Origin: an uncultured Sphingomonadaceae bacterium
GTDB lineage: Bacteria; Pseudomonadota; Alphaproteobacteria; Sphingomonadales; Sphingomonadaceae
DNA: 64,000 nucleotides
Direction of reading: 5' to 3'
Assembly: GCA_947493215.1 (NCBI GenBank)
Contig: CANLQE010000004.1
Location: 124,001-188,000 of the forward strand
The translations under genes and the position numbers were made by a program. Under the pieces are notes generated by a model. That model was given only the letters and a program-made list of their open reading frames with translations. It had not been told where the DNA came from and made no database searches. Of the stretch, positions 958 to 35,252 are shown piece after piece; positions within the stretch are counted from its first letter, which is position 1; each line of letters begins with the position of its first letter.

Positions 958-989
958 TATGTCTGTTTAATCTCGAAGGCAGACATTGG
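958..989. repeat. Degenerate half-copy of the TGTCCGCTTT palindrome family
   Basis: ATGTCTG at 959-965 pairs with CAGACAT at 981-987 around an AT-rich loop with a recognisable CTCGAA stretch. It lies alone in the 350-base gap between the OmpA-type gene and the M23 peptidase gene; apart from the terminator nothing else is evident in 781-1099. Confidence 0.5.
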
Positions 990-1099
990 GATTAGCTCGC
1001 TTCCACACAAGACATGGTTGGGTATTTAAATCATATTTGTTGTGCTGAAAATCGCGATTTTCGCATATATTTTCCAGCTGGTCACGCATGAGATAGGAG

Positions 1100-2032
1100 T
1101 TACAGGCAGTCTCCACGAGAGAGGTATTTCCCATTGAAACGCATTACAACTGGTTTTCGGTATGTGCGAGTATCATCGGGAGAAATTATCGTTTGGGCAT
1201 TGATGTGAAGATGCGGCTCTTCAGTGTTTCCAGAATTTCCAACTAATCCTATCTGCGCACCAGCTTCAATATTTTGTCCTTCTTCGACCGTTACCGTGCC
1301 CTTTTTTAGATGGGCCAAAACAACATACTTGTTGTCGCACCGAAGTGTCACTTGATTGCTGCCTGATGTATCTCGAAAGCGGTTACCTGCAGGGTGATCC
1401 TCTTTGGTATTTTCCGAGGACACAACAGAGCCAGAACATGGAGCAAACACGGGTTGGTCATAAACCAAATACTCATCTGGTTCTTTGGGTTGAGGGTTAA
1501 ACACCCACGGTGACCTTGTTCTAACACCAAGATCATCTTGACGCGTGAAGTCTATCGAGTGCTTTTCATAGCGGCCTTCTGGCGACAGGGCGAGGAGATA
1601 GTGCAAGTTAAGGGCCAAAGATGCGCCACCGGACATAACACAAACACCATCGCGTTCCTTCATGGGAGATGCCAAGTCGATGTAATCACCAGCAGGGGAA
1701 AATCGTCCGCTTAAGCCCTGCCATAACAAGATGGCACCGAGACAAATACATAGAAGCGTCGGACTGTGCTTCAGCCGAAACAGGCTTAAGGAACCGGTCT
1801 GATCCGATCGATAAATGTGGATGATGGTCGCACCCGCGATTACAAAAGCATAAACCACTTTTCCAATGTTTGGCGGGTAAAACCAAAGTCCGGCTGCGAG
1901 TGTGCCAAAATACACTATCCAAGTTGCGATCAGTCGGGCAACAAGTTCCGACCGCGTTGTCGATTTCGTCAATGCCAAACCAATTATCACTAGAATCAAT
2001 AGCGCATTTTGAATCACAAAAAATGTTGGCAA
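1100..2032 (-). CDS. Membrane-anchored M23-family peptidase (LytM-type)
   Basis: This 310-residue protein starts with about four hydrophobic segments (roughly residues 3-22, 34-52, 57-72 and 90-107) followed by an extracytoplasmic domain. The C-terminal 110 residues have the M23 layout: a HSID motif near residue 152 that fits the HxxxD zinc site, the beta-rich core with HLKKGTVTVEEGQ and GLVGNSGNT, and the terminal PHLHI motif with the catalytic and zinc-binding histidines. M23 enzymes cut peptidoglycan cross-bridges or serve as regulators of amidases. The multi-pass N-terminus is less usual than a single anchor. It stands alone, divergent from the gene at 2438, with a palindromic repeat between. 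The fold is well supported; substrate and whether it is active are inferred. Confidence 0.8.
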   Translation of the reverse strand: MPTFFVIQNALLILVIIGLALTKSTTRSELVARLIATWIVYFGTLAAGLWFYPPNIGKVVYAFVIAGATIIHIYRSDQTGSLSLFRLKHSPTLLCICLGAILLWQGLSGRFSPAGDYIDLASPMKERDGVCVMSGGASLALNLHYLLALSPEGRYEKHSIDFTRQDDLGVRTRSPWVFNPQPKEPDEYLVYDQPVFAPCSGSVVSSENTKEDHPAGNRFRDTSGSNQVTLRCDNKYVVLAHLKKGTVTVEEGQNIEAGAQIGLVGNSGNTEEPHLHINAQTIISPDDTRTYRKPVVMRFNGKYLSRGDCL

Positions 2033-2196
2033 TACCTTCCCCTGTTACAGCGAATTTACCCTAACCATCACAAGACACTTATTCAAAGCCTGTTCTTTCT
2101 TATTTTATGGAGTGCAGTTCAGCGCTGGATTTTGGAGTCGTGCCACTTCTCTATTCTCTATTCTCAGATCGACCGAATTAAGGCAATATATCCAGT

Positions 2197-2271
2197 CTAG
2201 CATAGCGTGCGCTTCTGCGCCCAAAGCAGACACTAGCGTTGTGGCAGCAATATCCCGAAAGCGGACACTAG
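2197..2271 (+). repeat. Complete two-hairpin copy of the TGTCCGCTTT repeat family
   Basis: Two hairpins in tandem: the first with the GCGCCC loop ending AAAGCAGACACTAG (2224-2237), the second with the ATCCCG loop ending AAAGCGGACACTAG (2258-2271). It lies between the divergent starts at 2032 and 2438. Translation of the minus strand here gives a spurious SVRFRDIAATTL peptide, so an open frame at 2105-2572 is repeat-derived and not a gene. The rest of 2033-2437 shows nothing identifiable. Confidence 0.85.
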
Positions 2272-2437
2272 ATTCATCGTAGCACCGCACTTGAGTGAAC
2301 AGCGAACGCAATAGAAAGCTTAAGCACGATTTATACCCATTCCAGATACTTGCAGAAATGCAAAGCTGCGTGTTAATTTGCGACTGAAAAATCAATAGGG
2401 CTCTGGCTGTGGAGTCTTGAATAGCAATGGAACTAAT

Positions 2438-2872
2438 ATGATACTTCCGAAACTTCCTGAAGCCTTGCAAATGTCGGCTTTGCTTATTGATGCTGATAAT
2501 GCGGGCTATATTGGACTTGAGGACACACATGCAGTTCAAAAAATGCAGGTCGATTTCGGATCTGTATGCCAAGCAATCGCTCTCCGCAGTTTACGAGTAT
2601 CCGGCGATCCCATCTCAGCAAAATCGATGATCAAGGCTGAACTTTTACATTTGAAGACAGAGATTGCCAGAAATGAACATACGAATGAAGAGACTCTTCT
2701 TTTTGATCACCTTGAAGAGCACTTATTTAGTGCCTTGGAGCGAGAAGGTTTAAAACAGGAGTGGCAACGCCAACTCTCTCGGTTTATCTTGTTTTTCCCA
2801 ACGCCTTTTCGAGCGCTTATCTTAGTGGTTATGGCAGGTGTGTTAATTTTTGCTGCAATAGAAATTCTATGA
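2438..2872 (+). CDS. Hypothetical protein with a C-terminal membrane anchor
   Basis: I do not recognise this 144-residue protein. The ATG at 2438 is preceded by GGAAC five to nine bases upstream; a TTG at 2417 would add seven residues. The N-terminal part is mixed alpha/beta, the middle (about residues 65-110) is acidic and helical, probably coiled, and the last 25 residues form one hydrophobic helix, so a tail-anchored inner membrane protein is likely. It is flanked on both sides by full palindromic repeats (2197-2271 and 2897-2964) and is AT-richer than the core genes, as expected for an accessory orphan. Confidence 0.55.
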   Translation: MILPKLPEALQMSALLIDADNAGYIGLEDTHAVQKMQVDFGSVCQAIALRSLRVSGDPISAKSMIKAELLHLKTEIARNEHTNEETLLFDHLEEHLFSALEREGLKQEWQRQLSRFILFFPTPFRALILVVMAGVLIFAAIEIL

Positions 2873-2896
2873 ATATTGTGTCTATCCATCTGATCT

Positions 2897-2964
2897 CTTA
2901 CGTCGGCTTTTCAGCCTAAAGCAGACATAAGCCTTGCGTCCGCAATATCCTGAAAGCGGACATC
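2897..2964 (+). repeat. Complete copy of the TGTCCGCTTT repeat family
   Basis: Arms ACGTCGGCTTT and CTAAAGCAGACAT form the first hairpin; GCGTCCGC and GAAAGCGGACAT the second. It sits between the convergent ends of the genes at 2438-2872 and 3001-3183, where a bidirectional terminator would be expected. Confidence 0.8.
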
Positions 2965-3000
2965 ACTTAACACTAAAAAATTAGTTAGATTGACTGGAAA

Positions 3001-3183
3001 TCAGTCAGCGCAAATATAGCAAATGGCCACATCTTCAGTAACCATCCCTTCATCAAAACCAAACGGTTTATCGCAGTGAATGCAGATCGCTATCGGTTCA
3101 GATTTGAAGGCAGTCTCTTCCCGATATTCACGCTTCTGCTTTTCTGTGTGCCAAATTTGGATCTCTTTTTCAGTAAATGCCAT
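3001..3183 (-). CDS. Small zinc-ribbon-like protein
   Basis: This 60-residue protein has two CxxC pairs (CIHC near residue 34 and CYIC near residue 55) separated by about 18 residues, the pattern of a treble-clef or zinc-ribbon knuckle. The N-terminus is a charged helix. The ATG at 3183 has a strong GGAGGAG ribosome binding site seven bases upstream, which decides this start over an upstream one that would add 13 residues. Small proteins of this sort may bind nucleic acid or another protein; no specific function can be given. It is bracketed by two repeat copies. Confidence 0.7.
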   Translation of the reverse strand: MAFTEKEIQIWHTEKQKREYREETAFKSEPIAICIHCDKPFGFDEGMVTEDVAICYICAD

Positions 3184-3267
3184 AGATGATCTCCTCCGCT
3201 TAACGGTAACGGAAAATTCCAAACGGAAAGTAAATCAATAGTTGAGAGTCTCTTGCTTGATGCAACT

Positions 3268-3325
3268 GCGTCCACTCAGCAGACACTGGCCTAATGTCAG
3301 CAATATCGCAAAAGCGGACGTTAGC
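3268..3325 (+). repeat. Shortened, degenerate two-hairpin repeat copy
   Basis: GCGTCCACTC..CAGCAGACACTGG is followed by CTAATGTCAGC and GCAAAAGCGGACGTTAGC. The first loop is shortened. It lies between the divergent starts at 3183 and 3526; otherwise 3184-3525 holds only AT-rich sequence without a recognisable gene. Confidence 0.7.
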
Positions 3326-4052: not shown

Positions 4053-4208
4053 GGCCTAAACTGACAAGCCTGCACATTTTACCGCCCTCGATCACTTTCT
4101 TAACCTTTGTCGATGGCCTGCCTTTCTTGCTTTGTCATCCCCGGTTTACCGCATCACATGACGCAAAGGGGTAATCATGAGAATCTATCGATGTTCGATT
4201 GAAAAGCT

Positions 4209-4241
4209 TGAGTCCGCTTTTGCGCCCATAGCAGACGTTGG
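4209..4241 (+). repeat. Half-copy of the TGTCCGCTTT repeat (GCGCCC loop)
   Basis: AGTCCGCTTTTGCGCCC followed by ATAGCAGACGTT forms one hairpin. It stands in a gene-free stretch just before the methyltransferase fragment. Confidence 0.75.
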
Positions 4242-4462
4242 ATAGCTGGAGAGCGATTTGTTCCATTAAAGGATTTAAACATTTACTGCGCTGTGATTGA
4301 GCTTTGAGTATCCTTACCTAACGGCTGGCATCAAAATATTCAGACCGAAGATTGTCCAAATAGCGCACAGCTTTGACTGATCCACCAACTGGGCGAATAT
4401 GTTATTGCACTAAGCATTACTTGGCGCCATCAATTGAACCTGTGATTGAGACTGACCAAATA

Positions 4463-4660
4463 ACACTTTCGGAACTCATCGAAGAAGCAAAGGAATCTGG
4501 GGGCCCCGAACTAGCCAACTACCAGACATTTGTTTCCGATCTGGCACCCGCCCTTGGCTTGAAGCGCCCAGATATGGCCAAAGAAGAAACCCGGCTTAAC
4601 GATTATGTTTTCGAACGTCGGGTAACTTTTCATCACCCGAACGGCACAACTAGCAATGGC
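4463..4660 (+). pseudogene. N-terminal fragment of a restriction-type DNA methyltransferase
   Basis: An open frame (readable from 4373 to 4786) contains about 65 residues resembling, from memory, the N-terminus of large class I SAM-dependent DNA methyltransferases of restriction systems: GPELANYQTFVSDL, then LKRPD, NDYVFERRVTFHHPNG and TTSNG. In the family this leads into a YKRGCFVLEAKQ-like segment and the catalytic NPPY domain; here the similarity stops at about 4660 and unrelated GC-rich sequence follows. No methylase motif remains, so this is a truncated relic. Homology is by recollection of the motif pattern and should be regarded as probable, not proven. Confidence 0.5.
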
Positions 4661-4796
4661 CTGTTATCAAACTACAATATTCAATGTCCATTTGCGCTTC
4701 CCTGTTCTTGCGGCACATTTGCCCGCTTTGACAATCAGTCCTTACCCACCACTGCCCCGCGTGCAATGGCCGAGACTATCGGCTAACCTGCATTGG

Positions 4797-5007
4797 CGCG
4801 CGCCGCGCTATATGGTGACTCACAATATCCCGATTGATGGACTGCCCCGATCGCGCGCCGCGCTGCTTTGCGTCCCATGCTATCGCTCGCCGTCTCGCAA
4901 CGTCTCATATTATCTCATGCTGTTTCATTGAGCGCCCCGGTATTGCGAGTCGTTGTGCAATGCTTGCTGATAAAGGGTCTCATGTTGTCTCATGTTGTCT
5001 CTTGAGG
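4797..5007. repeat. GC-rich direct repeat and TCTCATGTTG decamer repeats
   Basis: CGCGCGCCGCGCT occurs at 4797-4809 and 4852-4864. Then a 10-bp periodic series begins: TCTCGCAACG, TCTCATATTA, TCTCATGCTG and TTTCATTGAG from 4893 to 4932, and two exact TCTCATGTTG units at 4978-4997 with a third, changed unit TCTCTTGAGG. The regular spacing of one helical turn suggests a protein-binding array such as plasmid iterons or integrase arm sites, or slippage debris. No gene is credible here. Confidence 0.6.
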
Positions 5008-5189
5008 GATCTGGGTCCTTCCCTGAATCGGGGGCGTTCCGGGGGTGGCGCTGAGCGCGGTTTCGGAGTGTTTTCAAATTTTCGCATATAGACACAGGGG
5101 AAAATGAGAAATTGGCATCAATTCGAAGTCTGATTTATCGCGCCGTCGTGATCTTAACGGATAACATATTGAAATATAAGGATATGGAA

Positions 5190-5399
5190 CAGGTGGACAG
5201 CGTTTATAAGAAAATAGTCATCTAGGGGAGAGGGGATTATTGTATTGCATATAACACCTGGATGATGTGCGCGAGAACACGCAAGAGCATTTCTGTATAG
5301 TGGGAAAAGGCTGTCCAGCTCGTCCACCTGGTACAATCTCTTGTTTTTCAGTTATTTAACGTGGCACAGCCTCCAATTCGACCCTGTCCACCTGTCCAA
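5190..5399. repeat. Inverted CAGGTGGACAG repeats
   Basis: CAGGTGGACAG at 5190-5200 is the exact reverse complement of CTGTCCACCTG at 5384-5394. A third copy is split as CTGTCCA and GTCCACCTG at 5311-5330, and a further CTGTCCA at 5392-5398 overlaps the last one. This GTCCACC-rich 210-base stretch has no credible gene. Such arrays occur in replication or integration regions of mobile elements; that reading is an inference. Confidence 0.55.
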
Positions 5400-5550
5400 A
5401 CCTCTGATAAAAAATAATTATTTGGGTTTTGAGATGTCGTGAGACTGAAAGAATAGATTTCGTCACAAAAGCCGATAAACATTGCTCGATCGACCGAGAC
5501 GATATGAATTTCATTCTCAGAATCACAAGTTACAACCGGCAGTGCAAAGA

Positions 5551-5574
5551 TTTGTTGGCTCTTTTGTTGGCTCT
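5551..5574. repeat. 12-bp tandem duplication
   Basis: TTTGTTGGCTCT is present twice without a spacer (5551-5562 and 5563-5574). About 50 bases further, TTCGATTCCCGCAG at 5627-5640 resembles the T-loop and 3' stem strand of a tRNA gene without its partner strand. Together these may mark an old integration boundary. Confidence 0.45.
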
Positions 5575-5828
5575 TCTAGGCAATGAATATAAATATTCTA
5601 TATTTAATAGTACTTTAACTAAGTAATTCGATTCCCGCAGGAGTTATCATGCATTTTATCATTTTAAATCAGTAACTTAAGTGGAATTCGCGTGATGTTT
5701 GCCGGCGCCTTTTCCGAGGGTTAGCCGCCGCCCAATTCACAACTCTGATACAGAGACCGATTTTACCGAGACTTTAGGTCCGAAATCGCGCTCCAGTATC
5801 AAACCGGCAAAAAAGTGTTTTCAAAACG

Positions 5829-5896
5829 AATGTCCGCTTAAGGGATGAAGCAGCCACAAGGCTAATGTCCGCTTTGGGCGCAAAAGCGGACGCTAG
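5829..5896 (-). repeat. Complete copy of the TGTCCGCTTT repeat family, inverted order
   Basis: AATGTCCGCTTA, loop AGGGAT, then GAAGCAGCCACA; followed by CTAATGTCCGCTTTG, loop GGCGC, then AAAAGCGGACGCTAG. It lies 75 bases beyond the 3' end of the propeller lipoprotein gene (stop at 5971, minus strand). Confidence 0.85.
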
Positions 5897-5970: not shown

Positions 5971-7353
5971 TTACTGCAAAGACAATTTGAATATGGCCCC
6001 AGCGCCTCCACGCGCACCCACAGCCCCTATTGTCCCGTTACTAGCCGTCACACCATAAAAGGCGCCATCGTTTGCTTGTATGAAGCCCGCGAGAGGGTCC
6101 GAGGGATTCTCGTTAACCGGCCCAAAAGAAAATAGGACGCTATGGGTGCCAGATGGTGTTAATTTGAAGGCCGTTCCGTTGGAAGCGGATGCATTGGCAC
6201 CACCGCTTTGTGTTGTACCGTAGAAATTCCCGTCTGAAGCTTGGATAATAAAAGGCGATGGACCGTCTCCTTCAGAGCGACCATTTAGTGCGAATGCGTG
6301 TAAGATAGAAACCGTGCCGCCGAACGTAATTCGGAAAACCGTTCCACATCCGAATTGAAATCCGCACGTTCCGCCGCCGCCGGAGGGAGTCGTTCCGTAT
6401 AGTGCACCGTCGCTTCCCTCAATCAATTGACCCTGCGGAGCAATCCCGTCGGTCATCGAAGCACCGAAGGAATGCAAAATTGAAACGCTACCTGTGGGAG
6501 ACATCCGGAATACTGTACCGCAACTGTTCGCTGAGCCACACGTATTTGCACCGCCATTAGCTGTGGTGCCATAAAAATTGCCGTCACTGGCCTGAATTAA
6601 TGAACCATTGGGTTGAACACCGTCTGATAATGTAGCGCCAAATGAATATAGATTGGTCTTCGTGCCATCGGGTGTAATCTTGAAGATTGTACCGCAGTTA
6701 CCGCCGCTCTGTGGAATCTGTACACATTGATTTGAACCTCCCGACACGGTTGTGCCGTAAAAATCACCGTCCATCGCTTGGACTAGTCCGCCAGTCGGAA
6801 CGACGCCATCATCGGGCGTAGCACCGAACGAATGCAAAATTGTATAATTACCGTCCAACGTAATTTTAAAAACCGTTCCACCGTCGAAGTCGCCACCGTT
6901 TGTCGTCATGCCATATAGGGCTCCGTCTTGCCCCTGAATCAAAGGTGCGGTGGCGGTGAAGCCATCGCTTGCCGAACTGCCGAACGAATACAATACAGAT
7001 TCACTTCCATCAGGTGTCATTTTGAAAATAACGCCACAAGGGATATCGTTTGGGCGTCTGCATATATTGGATCCCCCGCTGCGCGTCGTCCCATAAAAAT
7101 TTCCATCGCTGGCCTGGAGAAGCGGGCCATTTGGTTGTGCACCATCAAGTGGATCGATACCAAATATATGCGGGAAAGTCACAGTCACTTGTGCAGGCGT
7201 TGGGGTTGGGGTTGGGGTTGGGGTCGGGGCTGGTGTCGGGGCTGGAGCTGGCAATGTGACTGGAGGGGGGGCATTGTTGCCGCTGTTTCCACCTCCTCCA
7301 CAGGATACTAACACGAGAGACAAAAAGGGCAGGGCCAGTTGATTTCGACGCAT
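5971..7353 (-). CDS. Lipoprotein with seven Gloeo/Verruco-type (TIGR03803-like) repeats
   Basis: The 460-residue protein has a lipoprotein signal (lipobox LVSC, lipidated Cys at residue 18), a glycine-rich stretch, a proline-threonine linker at about residues 29-54 and then seven tandem units of 45-65 residues. Each unit reads roughly QASDGNFYGTT..GG, then GT.FK..P.G and LYSFG or LHSFG. This is the TIGR03803 repeat pattern, and seven units fit a seven-bladed beta-propeller. Several blades carry a pair of cysteines between the GG and the CGT (blades 1, 3, 4 and 5), which may form disulfides in the periplasm or at the surface. Function of this family is unknown; binding of a polymer or a partner protein is a plausible inference. 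It is an isolated transcription unit. The linker DNA is a G-rich array on the plus strand. Confidence 0.85.
   Translation of the reverse strand: MRRNQLALPFLSLVLVSCGGGGNSGNNAPPPVTLPAPAPTPAPTPTPTPTPTPAQVTVTFPHIFGIDPLDGAQPNGPLLQASDGNFYGTTRSGGSNICRRPNDIPCGVIFKMTPDGSESVLYSFGSSASDGFTATAPLIQGQDGALYGMTTNGGDFDGGTVFKITLDGNYTILHSFGATPDDGVVPTGGLVQAMDGDFYGTTVSGGSNQCVQIPQSGGNCGTIFKITPDGTKTNLYSFGATLSDGVQPNGSLIQASDGNFYGTTANGGANTCGSANSCGTVFRMSPTGSVSILHSFGASMTDGIAPQGQLIEGSDGALYGTTPSGGGGTCGFQFGCGTVFRITFGGTVSILHAFALNGRSEGDGPSPFIIQASDGNFYGTTQSGGANASASNGTAFKLTPSGTHSVLFSFGPVNENPSDPLAGFIQANDGAFYGVTASNGTIGAVGARGGAGAIFKLSLQ
7200..7250 (+). repeat. TTGGGG hexamer array, G-quadruplex motif, inside the lipoprotein linker
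   Basis: GGGG tracts occur at 7202-7205, 7208-7211, 7214-7217, 7220-7223 and 7226-7229, separated by TT or TC, followed by further GGGG runs. On the minus strand this encodes the Pro-Thr linker. Five G4 tracts with two-base loops satisfy the usual quadruplex pattern on the template strand. Confidence 0.8.
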
Positions 7354-7491: not shown

Positions 7492-7524
7492 CTAATGTCC
7501 GCTTTCGGGATATAGCGGGCATTC
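7492..7524 (-). repeat. Half-copy of the TGTCCGCTTT repeat (CGGGAT loop)
   Basis: CTAATGTCCGCTTT, loop CGGGAT, then ATAGCGGGCATT. It lies about 20 bases past the stop of the minus-strand gene at 7545. Confidence 0.8.
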
Positions 7525-7544
7525 GTGTTAAAGGCTGAAGTTGT

Positions 7545-7862
7545 TTACCCTTCACTCCATTTTAGTTGGCTGGCATCTACCACATCGCCTCCCAAATGTT
7601 TGACGAATGCCGTCCTGATGGCATCCTTATGCTTTTGCCAAATTTCAATATCAGAGTTCGGGTCCATGTTGTCTGCCAAGAAAACCCATTCCACAAATTG
7701 ATCGGCTGTTACCTCTCCAGTTTCGGGTATCAGATCATCGACATGCAATGGCTTGTCATTCTTCACGCAGCCGCAGAAACCCCAATCTACGCAAACACAA
7801 TGCATCAACGCATCATATGCGGCTTTTCTGGAAGTGGCGTTTTCTTGGGATGTATTGGACAT
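7545..7862 (-). CDS. Conserved hypothetical protein
   Basis: A 105-residue soluble protein with an HCVCVDWGFCGC motif near residues 21-32, a GEVTADQFVEWVFLAD segment and a C-terminal helix. Four cysteines in the N-terminal motif could hold a metal or be structural. The pattern resembles small uncharacterised proteins of sphingomonads and other alphaproteobacteria, from memory; no function is known to me. The upstream region has only a weak ribosome binding site. It is flanked by repeat copies at 7492-7524 and 7909-7978. Confidence 0.6.
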   Translation of the reverse strand: MSNTSQENATSRKAAYDALMHCVCVDWGFCGCVKNDKPLHVDDLIPETGEVTADQFVEWVFLADNMDPNSDIEIWQKHKDAIRTAFVKHLGGDVVDASQLKWSEG

Positions 7863-7908
7863 AGACTGGCAATTACCAAAAATCCGCCTGCATTGAAATC
7901 GACAAGTG

Positions 7909-7978
7909 CTAGTGTCCGCTTTCGGGATGAAGCAGACACAACGCTAATGTCTGCTATGGACGCAAAAGCGGACATTAG
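7909..7978 (-). repeat. Complete 70-bp copy of the TGTCCGCTTT repeat family
   Basis: One of the best-preserved copies. CTAGTGTCCGCTTT, loop CGGGAT, GAAGCAGACACAAC; then GCTAATGTCTGCTATG, loop GACGC, AAAAGCGGACATTAG. The outer ends are complementary to each other as well. It lies between the divergent starts at 7862 and 8075. The plus-strand frame reads SVRFRDEADTTLMSAM, so the open frame at 7566-8033 is repeat-derived. Confidence 0.9.
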
Positions 7979-8620: not shown

Positions 8621-8669
8621 GTAGATCCATAACGTTATATCAAGTTTCAATTGATTCGAACACGTTTCC

Positions 8670-8726
8670 AGCGTCCGCTTTCGGGATAAAGCAGTCTAAA
8701 CGCTAGTGTCTGTTTTAACCACAAAA
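8670..8726 (-). repeat. Partly decayed two-hairpin repeat copy
   Basis: CAGCGTCCGCTTT, loop CGGGAT, AAAGCAGTCTAAACG is recognisable; the second half, CTAGTGTCTGTTTTAACCAC, is degenerate. It follows the 3' end of the gene ending at 8620. The rest of 8621-8937 is AT-rich and carries only the likely promoter of the next gene. Confidence 0.7.
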
Positions 8727-8937
8727 CCTATCCCGCTATCGACTTAGCTTCATGAGATGTCAGAATAGCTGTTGTCATTGAAGGCCAAAGGGTTTCGAAT
8801 TATTTATAGAGACCAACCGATCTGACAAGTCTATTGCCGTTCAACAAATAACGATAAATCAAGAATAACCTGCGCTGGTGGCAGAATGAGCTACCGTATA
8901 AATCGCCAAATAGTTTTAACTTTCTTCAGGGGTTTAC

Positions 8938-10152: not shown

Positions 10153-10267
10153 ATAAGACGACCTTTTCACGTTATTACTCTGTGTAAGCCCGGCGGTCGG
10201 TGCATATTCATTGAGGATGGTGGTTGATCAAAATTTGATTAACTGGCTCGCTATTTATCGCTGAAAT

Positions 10268-10325
10268 ATCATCCGTTTTCGGGATAAAGTAGAGATCAGG
10301 CTAACATCCGCTTTGGAATAGACAA
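10268..10325 (-). repeat. Decayed two-hairpin repeat copy between convergent genes
   Basis: ATCATCCGTTTTCGGGAT followed by AAAGTAGAGATCAGG, then CTAACATCCGCTTTGG and AATAGACA. Both halves carry several changes. It lies between the 3' ends at 10152 and 10427. Confidence 0.6.
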
Positions 10326-10426
10326 TCGAGCGCACATAATCACCTAAAGACGACGTGACCAACCACCATTCAAAATGGCGTATCATTCTGAATGGCTTAC
10401 CTCAAACATGGATATGCTTATCCGCT

Positions 10427-12613
10427 CTATCTTTCACGACCAGGCCTATAACGCCTAGTTGCAACTGCTTCAATCTCACGGCGATCAAACAACGCGGTAC
10501 GCCACTTTTCCGAAGCAAAAAGCTTAGCTTGATCCGCATAATGGGGCGAGTTCCTATCCGATGTGGTATTTCCAAATTGATGGATGACGTTTGCACTCTG
10601 TTTGCCATTTCGGTCCCATTCAACCATCGCAATCCATGTATCACCAGCGATTGCATGTAGTTTTCCATCATCCCTGATTTCAGCAGGGTAGATAGCACGC
10701 AAAGTGTCTGATGCGCCGCTGACCGGCAGATTAAGGTCTCCGCGCACCAGCCGGTTGACCTCTCCCCATTCGGGATCAATACGGCCGTAATGTGTGTTGA
10801 GATATTCCACAGCCTCGCGAAACGCATTTAGTGGTTCGGGAGCCGGTATTTTTGTGAACCTTGCGGTAATTTCGTGGACAACGGTTAGGCCGCCAAGTGC
10901 TGCATGGCGATTTTTAATGTCCATTTGGCGATCCCAGGCAGCCAAATGTTTCGCCGCCGCTGCCAACTCTGGTTCAGCGCTCCAATCATGTTTAAGAACC
11001 GCTGTCACCACCTTGTCGGCCTGAGATCCTTTTGCATATCCCGTATCAAACTTTATCGCGAGCAGGGCAGCGCGATCGATTTTAGAAACCCCGTCCATCA
11101 GTTCCATGATGCGCAATGAGCGATTGGTTTGATCGGTTTGCAATCCCATCGATTTTGGAAAATCTTCTGGTTTCAAATTGTCCGGGCCATCGGTGGCGTC
11201 ATATGGCTGGTTATTTGAGTTGAAGATAAAACCTGATTTTGGATTGAGCAATATCGGTACAGCGTCATAAGGGCGATAGCCGTCCCAAATGAGATCGGAG
11301 CGATCGCCGGGCATGTCCTTCGTCCAATCCCAACCTTCGATGCGATTGGGATATTGCCCGTTATGGATGAATGCGATCGTCCCCTCTCTATCGGCGTAAA
11401 TATAGTTAATGCTAGGCAATGCATTCATCGACATAGCCGCATTAAATTCTTCCCAGTTTTTTGCTTTGTTGAGTTTTAGCCGTTGCTCGCTTTGGCGCAT
11501 TTCGCCCATACCTGCGTAGCGGATCGCAAAACTGCCCTTTTCAGATTGAATCACAGGACCATGCTTGGACCGCAAAACATCTCGCTTTGCTGTATAGGCG
11601 AATGGTCCAAATATTTTGATTCTGATCTTGGCGGTCTTAACTTCGAAGTCCTCCCATTTGCCATCAAGCTTATATTGTTTTTCATTCTCCGGATTGATCA
11701 CAAGTTTATAGACGTCGCTTAGATCAGGATTACTGACCGTGTTCGCCCAGCCAAGATCGCGGTTAAACCCATGCAATACCATAGGTGATCCAGGAAACAT
11801 GCCGCCCTGGATATCCAAACCCTCTTCGGACACCATATGTGCTTCCCACCAGGCAACGGGACCCTCCATCGGTTGATGAGAATTGATCATCAAACGCGTG
11901 GCGCCATCACCTGAGCGTGATGGTGCGACGGCAAATGCGTTTGATCCGCGTGGTGGCGCCCGACGCGGAGAAACCATCCATGCCGTTTCCCCGGTTCCGG
12001 GGTCGAGTGCTATTTCCGCCATCCGATCATCGGAAAACAGTTCCAGCAATGTGCCATCCAAGCCATAGAAGAAGGGCGTTTTAAACAGGGAGCCAGCGAT
12101 GACATCTTTGCTTTTAAAGGGTGCGAGACCAGGCATTATCTTGTCCGGATTTTCAGCCGCGAATAGGTTCAACCCAGCGACATAGGCATCGGCGATTGCT
12201 TTGACCTCAGCAGAAACTTCGCTTTCATATTTGGCATCGACCGTATCCCAAACGTCAAAAAGGGCGACAATGTAATCGGTAGGTGCTCCGTCGCTGCCTT
12301 TATATCTAGCCAACAACCCACGCGTCGCGGCGACACTTTCCTGAATTGTCAGAAAATCATCTTCGGCATGGGCGTAGGCCACACCAAATGTAACGTCTGC
12401 ATCCGTTTTTCCATAGATATGCGGGACGCCATAGTTGTCGCGAATAATCTCCGCATCATATTTATCCGCATCAGCTGATAGAATTTCCGACGAAGGATTA
12501 TCCGGCAGAGGATCCCACAAAAAAACCGCTGCTGCGAATAGGCCAAGGAACAGCAGGACGCCGCTCCATTTTAGTCCGCGCTTCCATTGCATTTTTATTG
12601 ACCCACACTTCAT
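10427..12613 (-). CDS. Penicillin acylase family amidohydrolase (Ntn hydrolase)
   Basis: A 728-residue precursor with an N-terminal membrane or signal segment (residues 17-33), an alpha-chain region with IIRDNYGVPHIYG and GVAYAHAEDD, and the Ntn-hydrolase cleavage site PRGSNAF with the predicted N-terminal nucleophile Ser224. The beta chain shows HQPMEGPVAWWEAHM, GFNRDLGWANTVS and SINYIYADREG, all typical of the family, which includes penicillin G acylase, cephalosporin acylases and acyl-homoserine-lactone acylases. Autocleavage between Gly223 and Ser224 would give the mature heterodimer in the periplasm. Substrate cannot be read from the sequence: quorum-signal hydrolysis or cleavage of an amide in a catabolic route are both possible. 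Length fits the family. Confidence 0.9.
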   Translation of the reverse strand: MKCGSIKMQWKRGLKWSGVLLFLGLFAAAVFLWDPLPDNPSSEILSADADKYDAEIIRDNYGVPHIYGKTDADVTFGVAYAHAEDDFLTIQESVAATRGLLARYKGSDGAPTDYIVALFDVWDTVDAKYESEVSAEVKAIADAYVAGLNLFAAENPDKIMPGLAPFKSKDVIAGSLFKTPFFYGLDGTLLELFSDDRMAEIALDPGTGETAWMVSPRRAPPRGSNAFAVAPSRSGDGATRLMINSHQPMEGPVAWWEAHMVSEEGLDIQGGMFPGSPMVLHGFNRDLGWANTVSNPDLSDVYKLVINPENEKQYKLDGKWEDFEVKTAKIRIKIFGPFAYTAKRDVLRSKHGPVIQSEKGSFAIRYAGMGEMRQSEQRLKLNKAKNWEEFNAAMSMNALPSINYIYADREGTIAFIHNGQYPNRIEGWDWTKDMPGDRSDLIWDGYRPYDAVPILLNPKSGFIFNSNNQPYDATDGPDNLKPEDFPKSMGLQTDQTNRSLRIMELMDGVSKIDRAALLAIKFDTGYAKGSQADKVVTAVLKHDWSAEPELAAAAKHLAAWDRQMDIKNRHAALGGLTVVHEITARFTKIPAPEPLNAFREAVEYLNTHYGRIDPEWGEVNRLVRGDLNLPVSGASDTLRAIYPAEIRDDGKLHAIAGDTWIAMVEWDRNGKQSANVIHQFGNTTSDRNSPHYADQAKLFASEKWRTALFDRREIEAVATRRYRPGRER

Positions 12614-12673: not shown

Positions 12674-12740
12674 AATGACTCGCTTTTGCGATGCCGGAGC
12701 CACGAATTCTAATGTTCGCTATGGGCGCAAAAGAGGACAG
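12674..12740 (-). repeat. Repeat copy between divergent acylase and oxygenase genes
   Basis: The right half is clear: CTAATGTTCGCTAT, loop GGGCGC, AAAAGAGGACA (12709-12740). The left half (ATGACTCGCTTTTGCGATG) is strongly decayed. It sits in the divergent promoter region of the genes starting at 12613 and 12892. Confidence 0.65.
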
Positions 12741-12891
12741 GCTGATTTTATCATTTCCGCAGTTTGAAGCCTTCAAATATTGTCCAATAGATGAGGAATT
12801 TCACTGTTTCATTTGCGAGTATACGTTGGTGATCCAAATCGATTAGTTTCTGCCAGAAGATATAAACCCGACTTTAATCTGGAGAATTTTT

Positions 12892-15892: not shown

Positions 15893-15925
15893 CTAATGTC
15901 CACTTTCGGACAGCAGAGCAGACAG
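15893..15925 (+). repeat. Degenerate half-copy of the TGTCCGCTTT repeat
   Basis: CTAATGTCCACTTTCGG followed by ACAGCAGAGCAGACAG. It lies at the 3' side of a lipoprotein remnant and 120 bases upstream of the aldehyde dehydrogenase start. Confidence 0.6.
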
Positions 15926-16052
15926 CTCCACACTTTCCTTCGGTAGTGACCAATTTCATTGTATCATCAGGAGATATTATTTGTGATTGGTATTGTAAAT
16001 CCGAACACCCTACCAAACCAAAAGCCAAAAGAAGACTGAATCTCCTTACCAT
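15926..16052 (-). pseudogene. Truncated lipoprotein remnant
   Basis: From 16052 downwards the minus strand encodes MVRRFSLLLAFGLVGCSD, a clear lipoprotein signal peptide with lipobox LVGC, followed by about 22 polar residues. The frame then enters the half-repeat at 15893-15925 and runs, without a stop, into the aldehyde dehydrogenase. No mature domain is recognisable. It looks like the 5' stub of a lipoprotein gene cut off at the repeat. An intact short lipoprotein fused in frame by chance cannot be excluded, but the downstream 50 residues show no domain. Confidence 0.45.
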
Positions 16053-16192: not shown

Positions 16193-16262
16193 TTAATGTC
16201 CGCTTTTGCGCCCAAAGCAGACACTAGCCTTACGTCTGCTTTATCCAGAAAGCGGACATTAG
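16193..16262 (+). repeat. Complete 70-bp copy of the TGTCCGCTTT repeat family
   Basis: Best-preserved copy in this orientation: TTAATGTCCGCTTTTG, CGCCC, AAAGCAGACACTAG; then CCTTACGTCTGCTTT, ATCCAG, AAAGCGGACATTAG. It lies about 90 bases past the stop of the SDR gene (minus strand, stop at 16352) and would be transcribed as two successive hairpins. Confidence 0.9.
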
Positions 16263-21517: not shown

Positions 21518-21552
21518 CTAGTGTCCGCTTTTGCGCCCATAGCGGACATTAG
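21518..21552 (+). repeat. Perfect half-copy of the repeat between convergent genes
   Basis: CTAGTGTCCGCTTTTG, loop CGCCC, ATAGCGGACATTAG: a 35-base near-perfect hairpin between the 3' ends at 21488 and 21580. It could serve as a bidirectional terminator. Confidence 0.85.
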
Positions 21553-31478: not shown

Positions 31479-31840
31479 ATTGGTACAATAGCACAGCAAG
31501 TTTATATAATGTTACATCAATTTACATTAATTTAGGTGCCCTCAATCAGAGATCAGCAAGTATTTGAAAATCTACGATTTCGTTCGGCAGATTATCGCAA
31601 TTTTTTGTTTCACCAATGTTAGAGAAGAGGTTCATCAAGATCATTCAGTGCTTTCTTGTTACTGTAAGAAACGAGTTTTGGGCCCTAATCTAATCAAACG
31701 ACCGAGTGGCTTTCCCATGGAGTCGTCCAGGTCGTGAGGCTTGGTCTAGCCGATATCCTCAGACCCGTGCCGATCATCGTGAGCGCAACACGATAGTCTG
31801 CATTTGGACTTTATCAATAAGCGCTGCTAGATTCAGTGAG
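31479..31840. other. Gene-free region upstream of xerC
   Basis: About 360 bases without a credible gene. The left 150 bases are AT-rich, the right half GC-richer; the xerC frame remains open upstream to 31706, but those 45 codons do not resemble the family. No repeat copy, terminator or RNA gene was recognised. Confidence 0.4.
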
Positions 31841-32740
31841 ATGAAAACCACAACCGCTCTCATCCAGGACTTTTCCCGCCATTTGCGCGAAGGGCGGCGG
31901 CGTTCGCAGCATACGGTGCGGGCCTATGTCACGACGGCAGAGCGCTTTTGCGCCTTTCTGACGGACCATCTTGGCGGCGCAATAGGTGCCACCCAAATCA
32001 AAGCGCTCAAGCAAACGGATATTCGCTCCTATCTCGCCTTTCGCCGCGGCGATGACTTATCCAACAATAGCGCAGCGCGGGAATTATCCGCCATCCGCGC
32101 CTTCCTGAAATTTGTCGGTGGTGACGACTCGCAAATACCAAAAATCAAAGGTCCCAAAGTAACACGCGGCGTGCCCCGACCTGCCTCACCCGACGACATC
32201 GTGGCAATGGCCCAAGATATTGCCGAAAGTGCCAGCGATGATTGGGTTGGCGCGCGCGATTGGGCGGTTCTTCTGTTGCTATACGGCTCTGGCCTTCGGA
32301 TTAGCGAAGCACTCGATCTGACCGCCGAAGAGCTGCCGCTTTCCCAGACACTCCGTGTAACCGGCAAGCGCGGCAAGACGCGGATTGTGCCGTTACTCCC
32401 GCAGGTTCGCGAGGCAATAGAGCATTATATAGATTTATGTCCGCATGTGATGACACCGGACAAAACCATATTCCGCGGCAAACGCGGCGGACCGCTGTCG
32501 CCCAATCTCATTAGACGCGTGGTGCAGCAGGCGCGCGGAAAACTTGGCATATCGGACAAAACCACGCCTCATGCTCTGCGCCACAGCTTTGCGACGCATC
32601 TCTTGGCTGGCGGCGCTGATTTGCGGAGCCTGCAAGAATTGCTGGGTCATGCGAGTTTAAGCTCGACGCAAGTTTATACAGCGGTCGATGCGGCGCATTT
32701 GCTTGATGTGTATCAAAATGCACATCCTCGGGCAGGTTGA
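31841..32740 (+). CDS. xerC: Tyrosine recombinase XerC
   Basis: A 299-residue tyrosine recombinase that with XerD resolves chromosome dimers at dif. The N-terminal SAM-like domain (SQHTVRAYVTTAERFCAFL) is followed by the catalytic domain: Arg in LYGSGLRISEAL, Lys in VTGKRGKTR, His244 and Arg247 in HALRHSFATHLL, His270 in LLGHASLSSTQ and nucleophile Tyr279 in VYTAVD. The start at 31841 gives a family-like N-terminus. XerC rather than a phage integrase is supported by length and the HLLDVYQNAHPRA tail. Confidence 0.92.
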   Translation: MKTTTALIQDFSRHLREGRRRSQHTVRAYVTTAERFCAFLTDHLGGAIGATQIKALKQTDIRSYLAFRRGDDLSNNSAARELSAIRAFLKFVGGDDSQIPKIKGPKVTRGVPRPASPDDIVAMAQDIAESASDDWVGARDWAVLLLLYGSGLRISEALDLTAEELPLSQTLRVTGKRGKTRIVPLLPQVREAIEHYIDLCPHVMTPDKTIFRGKRGGPLSPNLIRRVVQQARGKLGISDKTTPHALRHSFATHLLAGGADLRSLQELLGHASLSSTQVYTAVDAAHLLDVYQNAHPRAG

Positions 32741-32754
32741 GCTTTTCTTCATAC

Positions 32755-32784
32755 AATGCCCGCTTTGGGCGCAAAAGCGGACAT
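32755..32784 (-). repeat. Half-copy of the repeat after xerC
   Basis: AATGCCCGCTTTG, loop GGCGC, AAAAGCGGACAT, 15 bases past the xerC stop. The rest of 32741-33042 contains the palindrome at 32905 and no gene. Confidence 0.75.
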
Positions 32785-32904
32785 ATGGATTAGTTGATGC
32801 GGCCAGCAGTCAACCTTCATTTGGAATTGACGATTGGATTCCCTTTGAAATTATACGACGGGCTGCATCGAGCTGCTTTTCAACAGTCAAGATAATCCAA
32901 GATA

Positions 32905-32918: not shown

Positions 32919-33042
32919 ATATTCTGGACCTTCCGAAAACACTGCCATAGGTGTTAGATTCAGTTCAACAGCCGCTCAGACGGCGTCTGTGATCTGCATT
33001 TGCGGTCTATCAAACGAAATGCCGGCCCTGAGAGGATATTTT

Positions 33043-33966
33043 GTGCGCCCATCACTACTTTTAATTTTTTCGTTTCTAACGCTGATCTGTCTGGCTTCTT
33101 ATTCGGCAGCTCAATCTCAGACAATCCACGATAAGCCGGTGCAATCCGATATCACAATCACACGTGATTTCGTGTCAGGCACGTTTGGCCAGGTCCATGT
33201 ACGGATAGCAAAACCGACAGTGCAAACCAGCCAGCCACCGCTGATATTGTTTCACCCAACCCCTTATTCCGGGGATTATTTTGTCAAATATATGCGGCTG
33301 ATGGCACAGGACCGAATTGTGGTGGCGATAGACACACCGGGATATGGGGATTCTGACAGGCCCAAGGAACTGCCATCAATCAACGATTACGCGACGTCTG
33401 CTGGGGCAGCAATTGATGCGATGGGTTTTGGCAAGGAACAGATTGATCTTCTTGGCTATCATACTGGAGGATTGATAGCCGTTGAGCTAGCTGCGACACG
33501 TCCAGACACGGTGCGCCGATTGGTTTTACCCGGATTTCCTTTCTTTGCCGGAGACGATAGGGAAAAGGCATATGAGGAAAATGTAAAGCCGGACCCGGTG
33601 GAAACCGATGGCTCGCATTTGTCGAAAAAATGGGAATTCTCAAATATGGCTGCGCCAGCTGGTCTGAGTCTGGAGCGTGGGCAAGAGCATTTCAACGATT
33701 CCGTCCAATGCTATCCCCATTGCTGGCAGGCCTATCACGCGGTCTTTTCGTATGAGACGGAAAAACAACTCCAGAAGATTGCACAACCTGTGTTGCTCAT
33801 CACCATCAATGGCAGCCTGAAAAAAGAAACGGAAACGGCCCGTAAATATATTTCCGATGCGAAGCTGGTTCATATTCCGGAAATAACTTTGGGCGGCTTT
33901 GACCTGTTTCCTGAGAAATATGCGAAGCTGTCCAGAGATTTTCTAAAGAACAGAGAAATCAAATAA
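33043..33966 (+). CDS. Secreted alpha/beta-hydrolase fold protein without the nucleophile serine
   Basis: A 307-residue protein with an N-terminal signal peptide (RPSLLLIFSFLTLICLASYSAAQS) and an alpha/beta hydrolase core: LILFHPTPYSGDYF (oxyanion-type loop), VAIDTPGYGDSDRP and the nucleophile elbow LLGYHTGGLIA. The elbow reads G138-Y-H140-T-G142, so His replaces the Ser of GxSxG; the usual C-terminal His also seems missing (LGGFDLFPEKYA). The GTG at 33043 has AGAGGA six bases upstream and gives a clean signal peptide; an ATG at 33019 is the alternative. Whether it is a pseudoenzyme or a variant enzyme cannot be told. It is convergent with the methyltransferase gene, with a repeat hairpin between. 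Confidence 0.75.
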   Translation: MRPSLLLIFSFLTLICLASYSAAQSQTIHDKPVQSDITITRDFVSGTFGQVHVRIAKPTVQTSQPPLILFHPTPYSGDYFVKYMRLMAQDRIVVAIDTPGYGDSDRPKELPSINDYATSAGAAIDAMGFGKEQIDLLGYHTGGLIAVELAATRPDTVRRLVLPGFPFFAGDDREKAYEENVKPDPVETDGSHLSKKWEFSNMAAPAGLSLERGQEHFNDSVQCYPHCWQAYHAVFSYETEKQLQKIAQPVLLITINGSLKKETETARKYISDAKLVHIPEITLGGFDLFPEKYAKLSRDFLKNREIK

Positions 33967-33988
33967 TGGCGGCACAAAAACATCAGAG

Positions 33989-34023
33989 CCAGTGTCCGTT
34001 TTCGGGATTAAAGCAGACACTGG
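33989..34023 (-). repeat. Half-copy of the repeat between convergent genes
   Basis: CCAGTGTCCGTTTTC, loop GGGAT, TAAAGCAGACACTGG: a 35-base hairpin whose outer six bases have changed in a compensating way (CCAGTG/CACTGG instead of CTAATG/CATTAG). It lies between 3' ends at 33966 and 34033. Confidence 0.85.
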
Positions 34024-34032
34024 TCAGGACTG

Positions 34033-35094
34033 CTAGCCAGTTACTTCTAGCACCATATTGGTCGGTGTTTCCGTTGCGCGGCTGACATTCGAAAAGCCTG
34101 CTTGATTGAGTACTTCGGTCAACCGCCTTTGACCGGCCTGTGCACCCAAACCTAGGCCAACTTCCTGAGCTACCGAAGTGGGCGTACAAATAGTGGTTGA
34201 GAAAGCATAAAAAATTTGACCTAGCGGATGGAGGTTTTCACTCATGCTATCTCCTGCAAGTGGTTCGACAAGCATGAAAGTACCATTCGGGCGCAACGCT
34301 TTTTTGATATGAGATGCAGCCCCAACCGGGTCTCCCATATCATGCAGTGCATCAAATATGCATGCGAAGTCGAAATTATCTCCTTCAAAATCTTGAGCCC
34401 GGGCAACCTGAAACTCTATGTTGCTGACTCCTGCTTTTTGGGCCTTGGCTTTTGCTTCCTCGATAGACGGTCCGTGAAAATCAATCCCGACAATTGTAGA
34501 ATTTGGATAGGCTTCGGCCATCAGGATTGTGGATGATCCATGCCCGCAAGCAATGTCCACGACCATTGCCCCTGCCTTGAGTTTTTCTTCTACCCCGCCG
34601 AGCGATGGTATCCAATTGTCGATCAGGTTTGCAGCATAGCCCGGGCGGAAGAAACGATCTGTCCCGCAGAAGCAACACTCACTATGATCGCCCCAAGGCC
34701 GTCCTTCACCCGACTTGAAAGTCTCGACTGCTTTGGCTTGCGTTTCATATTGCGATACAACTGACTGGAAAAAACCCTGCATACATGCAGGTTGTCCTTC
34801 TCTTGCAAAAATCAGAGCTTGTTCTTCTGACAATGAAAACCGGTCGTCATCGGCATGATAAGTCACATAACCAGCCGCAGCATTTGAACCCAACCACTGC
34901 AAAAGATATTTTGAGTTAAGTCCGGTTTTCGCAGCAAGTTCATCCAACGTTAGCGCACCAGCGCCATCCATCGCATCATATACCCCAGTCTGATCACCTA
35001 TATAGGACATAAAAAGGCTCATCGCCCCGGCTATATCGCCGATTACTTTGCCGGCTAGTGCTTCTAGTTTGGCTTCGTCAACTTGCTTCGTCAT
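34033..35094 (-). CDS. Two-domain SAM-dependent methyltransferase (Rv2258c-like)
   Basis: A 353-residue protein with an N-terminal winged-helix-like dimerisation domain (residues about 15-100, GVYDAMDGAGALTLDELAAKTGL, YLLQWLGSNAAAGYV) and a C-terminal methyltransferase domain with motif I VVDIACGHGSSTI, IVGIDFHGPSIEEA, FDFACIFDALHDMGDP and LRPNGTFMLVEPLAGD. The layout is that of the Rv2258c-like family and of plant-type O-methyltransferases. Substrate unknown. A conspicuous ECCFCGTDRFFRPGYA segment follows the first domain. It is a single-gene unit ended by a repeat hairpin. Confidence 0.85.
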   Translation of the reverse strand: MTKQVDEAKLEALAGKVIGDIAGAMSLFMSYIGDQTGVYDAMDGAGALTLDELAAKTGLNSKYLLQWLGSNAAAGYVTYHADDDRFSLSEEQALIFAREGQPACMQGFFQSVVSQYETQAKAVETFKSGEGRPWGDHSECCFCGTDRFFRPGYAANLIDNWIPSLGGVEEKLKAGAMVVDIACGHGSSTILMAEAYPNSTIVGIDFHGPSIEEAKAKAQKAGVSNIEFQVARAQDFEGDNFDFACIFDALHDMGDPVGAASHIKKALRPNGTFMLVEPLAGDSMSENLHPLGQIFYAFSTTICTPTSVAQEVGLGLGAQAGQRRLTEVLNQAGFSNVSRATETPTNMVLEVTG

Positions 35095-35218
35095 TTCGCT
35101 GTCTCCCGATCAGCGACCCGTAAACCGATTACCATGTTTTCCTACAGACCGATATATAGGATTTTCATCATCACGTTTTATGCTCGGATTACTGACGGTT
35201 GATTGAATCATGCTATAC

Positions 35219-35252
35219 CTAATGTCCGCTTTCGGGATAAAGCAGACATCCT
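35219..35252 (-). repeat. Half-copy of the repeat after gshB
   Basis: CTAATGTCCGCTTT, loop CGGGAT, AAAGCAGACAT, five bases past the gshB stop (minus strand). It is the rightmost copy found in the window and could terminate the rsmI-yraN-gshB unit. Confidence 0.85.

Follow-up and report, generated by a model that had tools for sequence, protein, structure and literature searches.

The DNA considered here, hereafter the window, is a stretch of 64,000 nucleotides from an uncultured Sphingomonadaceae bacterium, C4:124001-188000 of the genome we call G000 (3.69 Mb, 11 contigs). Its left part carries a family of palindromic repeats that lie between genes. The typical element is a 70-bp pair of inverted core sites, A and B, of the kind seen in dif and lox; single sites occur too. 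We will argue that these palindromes are probably recombination sites that bound mobile gene cassettes and are served by a dedicated tyrosine recombinase, a reading to which we give a probability of about 0.8. The case is carried by things that can be seen in the sequence itself: the anatomy of the sites, their intergenic location, their polarity, near-identical segments that end in sites, variation at one locus, and the location and co-occurrence of a recombinase gene.

The repeat family and its core sites

The repeat family is real. The original prediction placed 17 copies between positions 958 and 35,252 of the window, and by eye every one of them is an intact or decayed copy. A weight-matrix scan, in which a site is called at a position-weight score of at least 16 bits, recovers 16 of the 17 and leaves the copy at 15893 uncalled; at 12674 the called half is 12709-12743 and at 3268 it is 3293-3324. 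These scores are not independent of the window copies because the matrices, seeded with consensus strings, were refined on the same stretches, and 7 of the 12 training rows of the covariance model come from the window. The prediction also held that the DNA from 35.3 to 64 kb is free of copies, and the matrices make zero calls to the right of 35252. The lone covariance-model match on that side (58771-58835, 14.4 bits, E 0.38) is probably due to chance.

The motif is as far above chance as had been claimed, since every control came out at zero. Five mononucleotide shuffles of the window gave no match, a 26-base pattern matched the genome 58 times against 0 for the same pattern read backwards, and reversed weight matrices found nothing over 1.10 Mb. 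The whole-genome profile scan that had been suggested as a check, in which the best 150 candidates were scored, gave at least 147 matches at E <=1, some being both strands of one place, and at least 109 distinct places at E <0.01. These places crowd together: 34 of 104 neighbouring gaps are shorter than 2 kb when 6.3 are expected with uniform placement. Match counts for the other genomes are likewise lower bounds (the best 126-150 candidates were scored) and include some both-strand matches of one place.

The weight-matrix scan found 182 A and 173 B sites in 60 source stretches (1.10 Mb), most of which were selected for site richness, as were most stretches from G000, G007, G011, G017, G019 and G020. 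The A site reads CTA(A/G)TGTCCGCTTT-CGGGAT-(A/G)(A/T)(A/T)GC(A/G)G(A/C/T)CA, strongly conserved in the left arm and the 6-bp spacer CGGGAT and loose in the right arm. The B site is its mirror image, with a loose left arm, the 7-bp spacer GGGCGCA and the strong right arm AAAGCGGACA. The A site has the 10+6+10 layout of two half-sites around a 6-bp spacer, as in a dif module, and the B spacer is 7. There are 82 composites of A and B, all sharing one geometry in which the strong arms face outward, and in 76 of them the gap is identical; 100 A and 91 B sites stand alone. The copies are intergenic, as predicted. None of the 355 sites has more than half its length inside a gene call, against 257 expected with random placement in the same selected stretches; the gene calls come from a simple codon-score script, and the CTAA/CTAG site ends hold stop triplets, which lowers coding overlap in some frames.

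Across the 82 composites there is no arm covariation, and mean pairing equals that of shuffles for both hairpin and attC-like pairing, so the palindromes make better sense as pairs of half-sites in double-stranded DNA, as in dif and lox, than as RNA or single-strand hairpins. We rejected an RNA or hairpin function on this absence of covariation, which was scored on gap-free sites.

Shared segments and a variable locus

The segment at 7492-7938 begins with the first base of an A site and stops where the A palindrome of the next element ends. It differs from its copy elsewhere in the same genome by 2 mismatches, one of which falls within the left site's outer arm. Outside the two outer edges the two places are unrelated, and the segment is bounded by single sites of about 30 bp at one or both ends. 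Much longer segments are shared between species: G017 and G011 share 5148 bp at 99.5% identity, and G000 and G017 have two such segments in common, of 8285 bp (98.0%) and of 4767 bp (97.7%), all of them ending in sites. The baseline for the same genome pairs, taken at one core locus (2.9-3.7 kb aligned), is 85.0% and 81.3%.

These ends can be counted. The fetched stretches hold 10 segments of at least 130 bp and at least 95% identity, and 12 of their 19 free ends have a site no more than 10 bp away in both copies, which happened to 0 ends in each of 500 random placements (placed anywhere in the stretch, coding DNA included). When the identity is lowered to 88%, 22 of 47 ends are at sites and the random maximum is 2. 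Spacer type is concordant at 18 of 22 matched ends. Fifteen junctions were displayed base by base, and 5 of them switch at the spacer or at the edge between spacer and arm. For four genes in the left part of the window, G007 or G020 has an 80-85% identical homologue at an unrelated place; the three G007 stretches that hold these homologues showed no clear site.

The same counts bear on the idea that the palindromes serve expression, as bidirectional terminators or as RNA hairpins, and that shuffling merely ends in intergenic DNA. The sites are indeed intergenic, and genes beside them point toward the element more often than away from it, 213 to 129. However, this idea leaves the 12 of 19 ends at sites unaccounted for, bearing in mind that the control placement was not restricted to intergenic DNA, and it sits badly with the lack of base-pair covariation and with the lack of any Rfam match at gathering score in the window. 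We consider it very improbable.

The window itself contains a locus that varies between genomes. It is flanked on the left by a XerC/D-type gene (31706-32740), which directly borders it, and on the right by a glutathione synthetase gene (35257-36204). In G000 the order between them is B site, hydrolase, site, methyltransferase, A site. The two flanking genes are adjacent in G047, with 38 bp between the matches and no called site, and lie near each other in G019, G020 and G007. In G020 a B site and then an A site enclose about 0.8 kb of other DNA; G019 carries a different reading frame, with an A site on the right and a partial left site seen by eye; G007 carries 1.4 kb of other DNA and no called sites. 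A B site follows the first gene in G017, where the second gene is on another contig, and in G011 the flanking genes are 23 kb apart with no called sites. The original prediction had suggested looking for orthologous intergenic sites that are empty in relatives, and G047 provides one, having either never acquired a site or lost it. Inspection by eye of this empty and occupied pair, a single locus, revealed no target duplication. The methyltransferase unit (33988-35248) occurs elsewhere in G017, G019 and G011, where the match begins and ends at sites, and also in G020; in G011 it is C3:205990-207249 (L085:15991-17250, with site matches at 15953-16020 and 17218-17252).

Table 1. Elements, sites and associated genes in the window (PWM, position-weight matrix; R1, covariance model; HSP, high-scoring segment pair; ORF, open reading frame; HTH, helix-turn-helix; aa, amino acids)
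Feature	Position	Strand	Evidence
Single A-type site, degenerate	958..989	-	PWM 25.6 bits; R1 18 bits
Composite (B 2202-2236, A 2240-2271)	2202..2271	-	R1 75.6 bits; PWM
Composite (B 2897-2931, A 2935-2966)	2897..2966	-	R1 74.5 bits; PWM
Element, good A 3293-3324, B half decayed	3265..3324	-	R1 42.6 bits; PWM
Single B, last minus site left of polarity flip	4207..4241	-	PWM 46.3 bits
Composite (A 5827-5858, B 5862-5896), first plus element right of flip	5827..5896	+	R1 84.2 bits; PWM
Single A, left end of duplicated 447-bp cassette	7492..7523	+	PWM 48.4 bits; blastn HSP start
447-bp putative cassette, A to A, 99.55% identical to C1:1811621-1812067 of G000	7492..7938	+	blastn; junction alignment
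105-aa ORF within duplicated cassette; Pfam: none at E 0.01	7545..7862	-	
Composite (A 7909-7940, B 7944-7978); right end of duplicated cassette at its A	7909..7978	+	R1 90.2 bits; PWM
Element, good A, B half decayed	8668..8737	+	R1 59.6 bits
Degenerate composite	10266..10335	+	R1 55.3 bits (training row of R1); PWM A half 21.5 bits
Penicillin-amidase gene between two elements	10427..12613	-	80% identical homologue adjoins G020 element C1:919855-919924
Element, A half decayed, B 12709-12743	12674..12743	+	PWM 34.8 bits (B); A half by eye
Decayed A-type site, sub-threshold	15893..15924	+	by eye
Composite (B 16193-16227, A 16231-16262)	16193..16262	-	R1 89.6 bits; PWM
Single B	21518..21552	-	PWM 59.6 bits; R1 33.3 bits
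XerC/D-type recombinase gene left of cassette locus; conserved neighbour, outside system	31706..32740	+	Pfam Phage_integrase 3.5e-37 + SAM-like N domain
Single B, left end of variable cassette locus	32753..32787	+	PWM 42.7 bits
Putative cassette gene, alpha/beta hydrolase	32989..33966	+	
Site, A-like spacer CGGGATT, B-like length	33989..34023	+	PWM 19.9 bits
Putative cassette gene, methyltransferase with winged HTH	34033..35094	-	
Single A, right end of variable locus	35219..35250	+	PWM 50.8 bits

A few other features stand near the elements. A conserved 200-bp repeat without a gene call (5625-5826) stops at the element at 5827 and has other copies in G000 (C1:1172090 and 1185930), G017 (two, 99.6% alike), G011, G007 and G046. 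The reading frame at 5971-7353, which lies between two elements, repeats units of about 62 nt internally and matches no Pfam family. At 7190-7260 and 29570-29710 there are low-complexity repeats, 6-12 nt long and of the GGGGTT/GGCGTT type.

Several contigs end close to elements. Within about 1.3 kb of one lie the C3 end and C1 start of G017, the C1 and C2 ends of G019, the C2 and C4 starts of G011, and the C1, C4 and C5 ends of G000; in G017 a stretch present at two contig ends, in reverse complement, stops in an element. Recently duplicated cassettes would fit this. Elsewhere two copies of one gene, acetyltransferase-like by eye, follow an element (L062 9540-9879 and L066 13915-14589), and the L062 copy is without an internal part.

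A small tyrosine recombinase and the polarity of the sites

The elements have a direction, and neighbours tend to share it. Of neighbouring elements less than 3 kb apart 141 pairs have the same orientation and 17 differ, and in G000 the same is true of 61 of 66 neighbours less than 10 kb apart. The point where the direction flips is occupied in G020 and G019 by a gene for a tyrosine recombinase of 208 amino acids lying between inverted B sites that resemble the B sites of the cassettes. The arrangement is the same in G017 and G011 and around the split gene of G047. When the fetched stretches of these five species are added up, there are 34 minus and 2 plus sites to the left of the recombinase and 27 plus and 0 minus to its right; one of the exceptions comes from a second recombinase unit in G019 (its right-hand B site), the unit being duplicated in that genome with its ends at B sites.

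The protein matches the Pfam family Phage_integrase (PF00589, 2.9e-20). R59, K87, H156, R159, H182 and Y191 are invariant in 30 recombinase sequences, and we take these residues to fill the catalytic roles. A structure predicted from the 30 sequences (mean predicted local distance difference test score, pLDDT, 83.7) matches XerA, XerH and Cre; an earlier poor model with a pLDDT of 52.2 was discarded.

The enzyme and the sites also occur together. Element matches in 31 sister species range from at least 0 to at least 129 per genome, with at least 81 in G019, at least 101 in G020 and at least 26 in G047, whose recombinase gene is the split one. An intact copy of this recombinase, which we call clade 1 (at least 90% identity), is present in G011, G017, G019 and G020. 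Of the 32 genomes searched 5 have 80 matches or more, and these four are among them; the 27 others have 0 intact copies (Fisher p 1.4e-4, which ignores kinship). G000 holds only a remnant of the gene, beside an element at C1:668545-668676.

The window follows the same pattern. From 2.2 to 12.7 kb its elements run - - - - and then + + + + + +, and neither a DNA search nor tblastn found a trace of the recombinase at the polarity centre, 4242-5826. Since the polarity pattern is present without a recombinase trace inside it, the window (minus from 2.2 to 4.2 kb, plus from 5.8 to 12.7 kb) resembles an array whose enzyme has been lost. The plus run does not go on to the right: the elements at 16193 and 21518 are minus, as is 958, and the sites at 32753, 33989 and 35219 are plus.

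The sites have two half-sites and, in A, a 6-bp spacer as in dif, and XerC/D-type genes are present in these genomes, so one may ask whether host XerC/XerD use them as dif modules and the 208-amino-acid protein is not the enzyme involved. Yet Xer-type genes (28-34% identity to the query) are also present in most of the genomes that have 0 or 1 match, and it is the gene for the small protein that is bracketed by sites at the polarity centre. We find this alternative improbable.

A second group of recombinases, clade 2, is about 57% identical to the first. We rejected it as the partner of the sites: G005 has one open copy and a count of 1 match. Two of its members, L154 1710-2342 from G007 and L155 2448-3080 from G005, look identical by eye as proteins although the species differ, and no A or B site is called near either.

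The original prediction held that similar elements are common in alphaproteobacterial genomes. In its present sequence form the family is not general in that class, since the exact sphingomonad site matched 0 of 16 genomes that belong to the same order but to other genera. The recombinase reaches further. At least 593 bacterial genome stretches match its peptide pattern and, among the matches listed, 531 encode a relative. We kept 79 loci from Alpha-, Beta- and Gammaproteobacteria, some named only Proteobacteria, plus one record labelled Phycisphaerae. The family appears in 436 of 72,556 plasmid records and in 3 of 50,697 phage records; the 70-bp consensus appears in 1 of the 72,556 plasmid records, at 78%.

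Some of these relatives have inverted sites of their own. A flank test on 48 of the 79 loci gave an inverted repeat scoring above all 30 shuffles in 22, with a margin greater than 8 in 16, and none in 26 loci. Three of the 22 belong to the sphingomonad genus; about six repeats are GTCCGC-type and about twelve GGCCGGTTAGCG-type, and a Pseudomonas-type site reads GCTTTTGGCCGGTTAGCGAC. A shifted-position control on a subset of 33 loci was positive in 7 of 132 placements against 15 of 33 real ones, and with a margin greater than 8 in 0 of 132 against 10 of 33. At L171, in another lineage, a 74-bp composite occurs three times in one orientation (+ + +) to the left of the recombinase and once inverted (-) to its right.

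A possible cassette system and its relation to known systems

We infer that the recombinase acts on these sites, that it works through a circular intermediate and that a spacer rule governs which sites react. Each palindrome would be a core site in which a spacer of 6 bp (A) or 7 bp (B) separates two inverted half-sites, a strong and a weak one, of about 10-14 bp; A and B often stand back to back as the 70-bp element, with the strong half-sites outward. The recombinase would pair two sites with the same spacer and exchange strands there. When two sites have the same orientation the DNA between them, one to several genes, would be freed as a circle that could integrate at another site of the same type, and therefore the genes between sites would act as cassettes. 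The dedicated enzyme would be the 208-amino-acid recombinase, barely more than a catalytic domain, with its gene bracketed by inverted B sites. The polarity would point outward because arrays grow away from the recombinase on both sides. G000 would have retained sites and cassettes while its enzyme gene survives only as a broken remnant.

Another arrangement of the same parts would make the 70-bp element a miniature inverted-repeat transposable element (MITE) of a small tyrosine-recombinase insertion element. Pairs of MITEs would then mobilise the DNA between them like a composite transposon, with the cassette behaviour as a by-product. The composite does have the architecture of the recombinase unit minus its gene, with the strong arms outward, the G019 unit is duplicated with its ends at B sites, and G047 has no site where others carry one. 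However, the recombinase unit has B on both sides when the composite has A and B, 5 of the 9 resolved junctions switch inside the site and not at its outer edge, and the one locus inspected by eye gave no target duplication. We regard MITEs as a possible but unlikely account.

It is important to realize that several observations weigh against a dedicated cassette system. A structure-fitted alignment gave more paired changes than shuffles, though it includes both-strand copies of the same palindromes. Among the free ends at 95% identity 7 of 19 lie off sites, and three G017/G011 segments, 157-556 bp long and without a site nearby, account for six of them. Of the 15 displayed junctions 4 are identical out to the outer edge of the site and 6 are not settled by eye, and mismatches in outer and inner arms are alike (26/208 against 28/206), which is uninformative on crossover position. 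At 4 of the 22 matched ends A in one copy pairs with B in the other. The association of the enzyme with high match counts is not independent because the five site-rich genomes may be one clade, and G007, G045, G046, G013, G014 and G023 hold at least 28-41 matches without a clade-1 recombinase gene. Present activity in G000 is doubtful because it has no intact clade-1 recombinase.

Some of these points are what would be expected if RecA-dependent exchange or gene conversion between dispersed repeats of 30-70 bp moved the DNA without a dedicated enzyme. The sites are repeated and similar, the four junctions just mentioned run to the outer edge, and G000 has no intact clade-1 gene. But about 30 bp is short for RecA, and single sites of that length bound the 447-bp segment. 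Nor would homology explain why polarity is arranged around a recombinase gene, why that gene co-occurs with high copy number or why inverted sites lie near some of its proteobacterial relatives. We think homologous exchange is an improbable explanation, and we return to the recombinase-served cassettes.

What would these cassettes carry? There are 145 inter-element intervals of 100-2500 bp (median 741 bp), and a single gene call lies in 54 of them, two or more in 16 and none in 75. In single-gene intervals the orientation of the gene is not fixed, 32 against 21. Pfam was run on 84 of 91 listed cassette proteins, and the listing of the 25 commonest of 125 families has LysR regulators, alpha/beta hydrolases, methyltransferases and short-chain dehydrogenases among the commonest, with 3-5 proteins each. 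Judged by these matches, the functions appear mostly ordinary.

We lean, with modest confidence, toward a broader conclusion. Besides integrons and dif modules there may be a third route of cassette capture, in which a widespread family of recombinases of about 208 amino acids, their genes set between inverted double-stranded core sites, seeds two-sided polar arrays and moves everyday metabolic genes around, both inside a proteobacterial species and from one to another. If so, accessory genes move in small units through a site-specific system. To our knowledge genome annotation does not recognise such a system; database records label the enzyme only tyrosine-type recombinase/integrase or integrase, and we found no name for the sites. 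In the titles and abstract beginnings listed, with the subscription literature mostly outside, we saw no description of the sites or the system. Such a system would predict the places where genes are gained and lost and would explain assemblies that end near sites, and a small recombinase with two spacer types would be directly testable. Since the family is on plasmids as well as in bacterial genomes, the question is wider than the sphingomonads.

Integrons have a tyrosine recombinase gene that heads cassette arrays with palindromic sites of common polarity, and enzyme-less arrays, called CALINs (clusters of attC sites lacking integron-integrases), exist (PMC8618304). The present system is similar in its recombinase-headed arrays of one polarity and in the enzyme-less array of G000. 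There are also differences. The integron-integrase model TIGR02249 gives 19.2 and 23.6 bits against a cut-off of 265. GTTRRRY, the core motif of attC, is found in 0 of 82 composites on either strand, and there is no sign of conserved pairing, which equals shuffled. The arrays lie on both sides of the enzyme, the orientation of the genes is not fixed and the sites are scattered over the genome. Membership in the integrons was ruled out on the integrase score and the core motif; as for the separate attI site of integrons, the sites beside the enzyme gene here are B sites that resemble those of the cassettes.

The dif modules of Acinetobacter (pdif) are genes bounded by sites of two half-sites and a 6-bp spacer, and they shuffle between contexts; they are mostly on Rep_3 plasmids, have inversely oriented flanking sites and use host XerC/XerD (PMC13141974). 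The genes described here are bounded by sites of the same layout, in A with the same spacer length; however, neighbouring sites share orientation (141 of 158) and a dedicated recombinase of 208 amino acids is linked to them. Chromosomal dif modules are reportedly described in a 2026 paper (PMC12907356). Cre/lox, Xer/dif and the minimal recombinases of the FimB type also have inverted half-sites around a spacer of 6-8 bp, and the fold predicted here matches XerA, XerH and Cre; a model of tyrosine-type DNA invertases of similar length (NF007370, 200 positions) gives 27.8 and 22.8 bits for two of our recombinases. Those systems resolve dimers or switch phase at one or two sites, whereas here about 100 sites bound many genes.

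The last comparison is with repetitive extragenic palindromic (REP) sequences and bacterial interspersed mosaic elements (BIMEs), spread by a REP-associated tyrosine transposase (RAYT) of the Y1 kind. They too are intergenic palindrome pairs in about 100 copies, the CTA(A/G) foot is shared, and a Y1_Tnp gene exists in G000, G011 and G017. Yet none is found in G019 and G020, with at least 81 and at least 101 matches, nor in G007, G013, G014, G023, G045, G046 and G047 (at least 26-41). When the contigs of the G000 and G011 genes were examined, that of G000 had no clear element (best 8.8 bits, E 0.85), and the G011 gene had one about 1 kb away. The arms do not covary, the DNA between elements moves, and REPs leave near-identical segments of 5-8 kb that end in elements unexplained. 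Copy number does not track Y1_Tnp, on which ground we rejected REP/RAYT, now hardly credible. The G000 gene (L067, C6, 11060-11725) is RAYT-like, 81% identical in G017, and lies beside what look by eye like general-secretion-operon genes. The original prediction was right that the family is dispersed, intergenic and palindromic and, as it had thought possible, the family is present in relatives, but the ordinary dispersed repeat that it implied is unsupported because the arms do not covary, G019 and G020 lack Y1, near-identical segments end in sites, and polarity is centred on a recombinase gene.

Read from its sequences, the system appears to resemble integrons and dif modules and yet to fail the defining features of each. 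Because those features fail and REP/RAYT is unsupported, we believe it is best placed as a variant of the gene-cassette systems driven by a recombinase.

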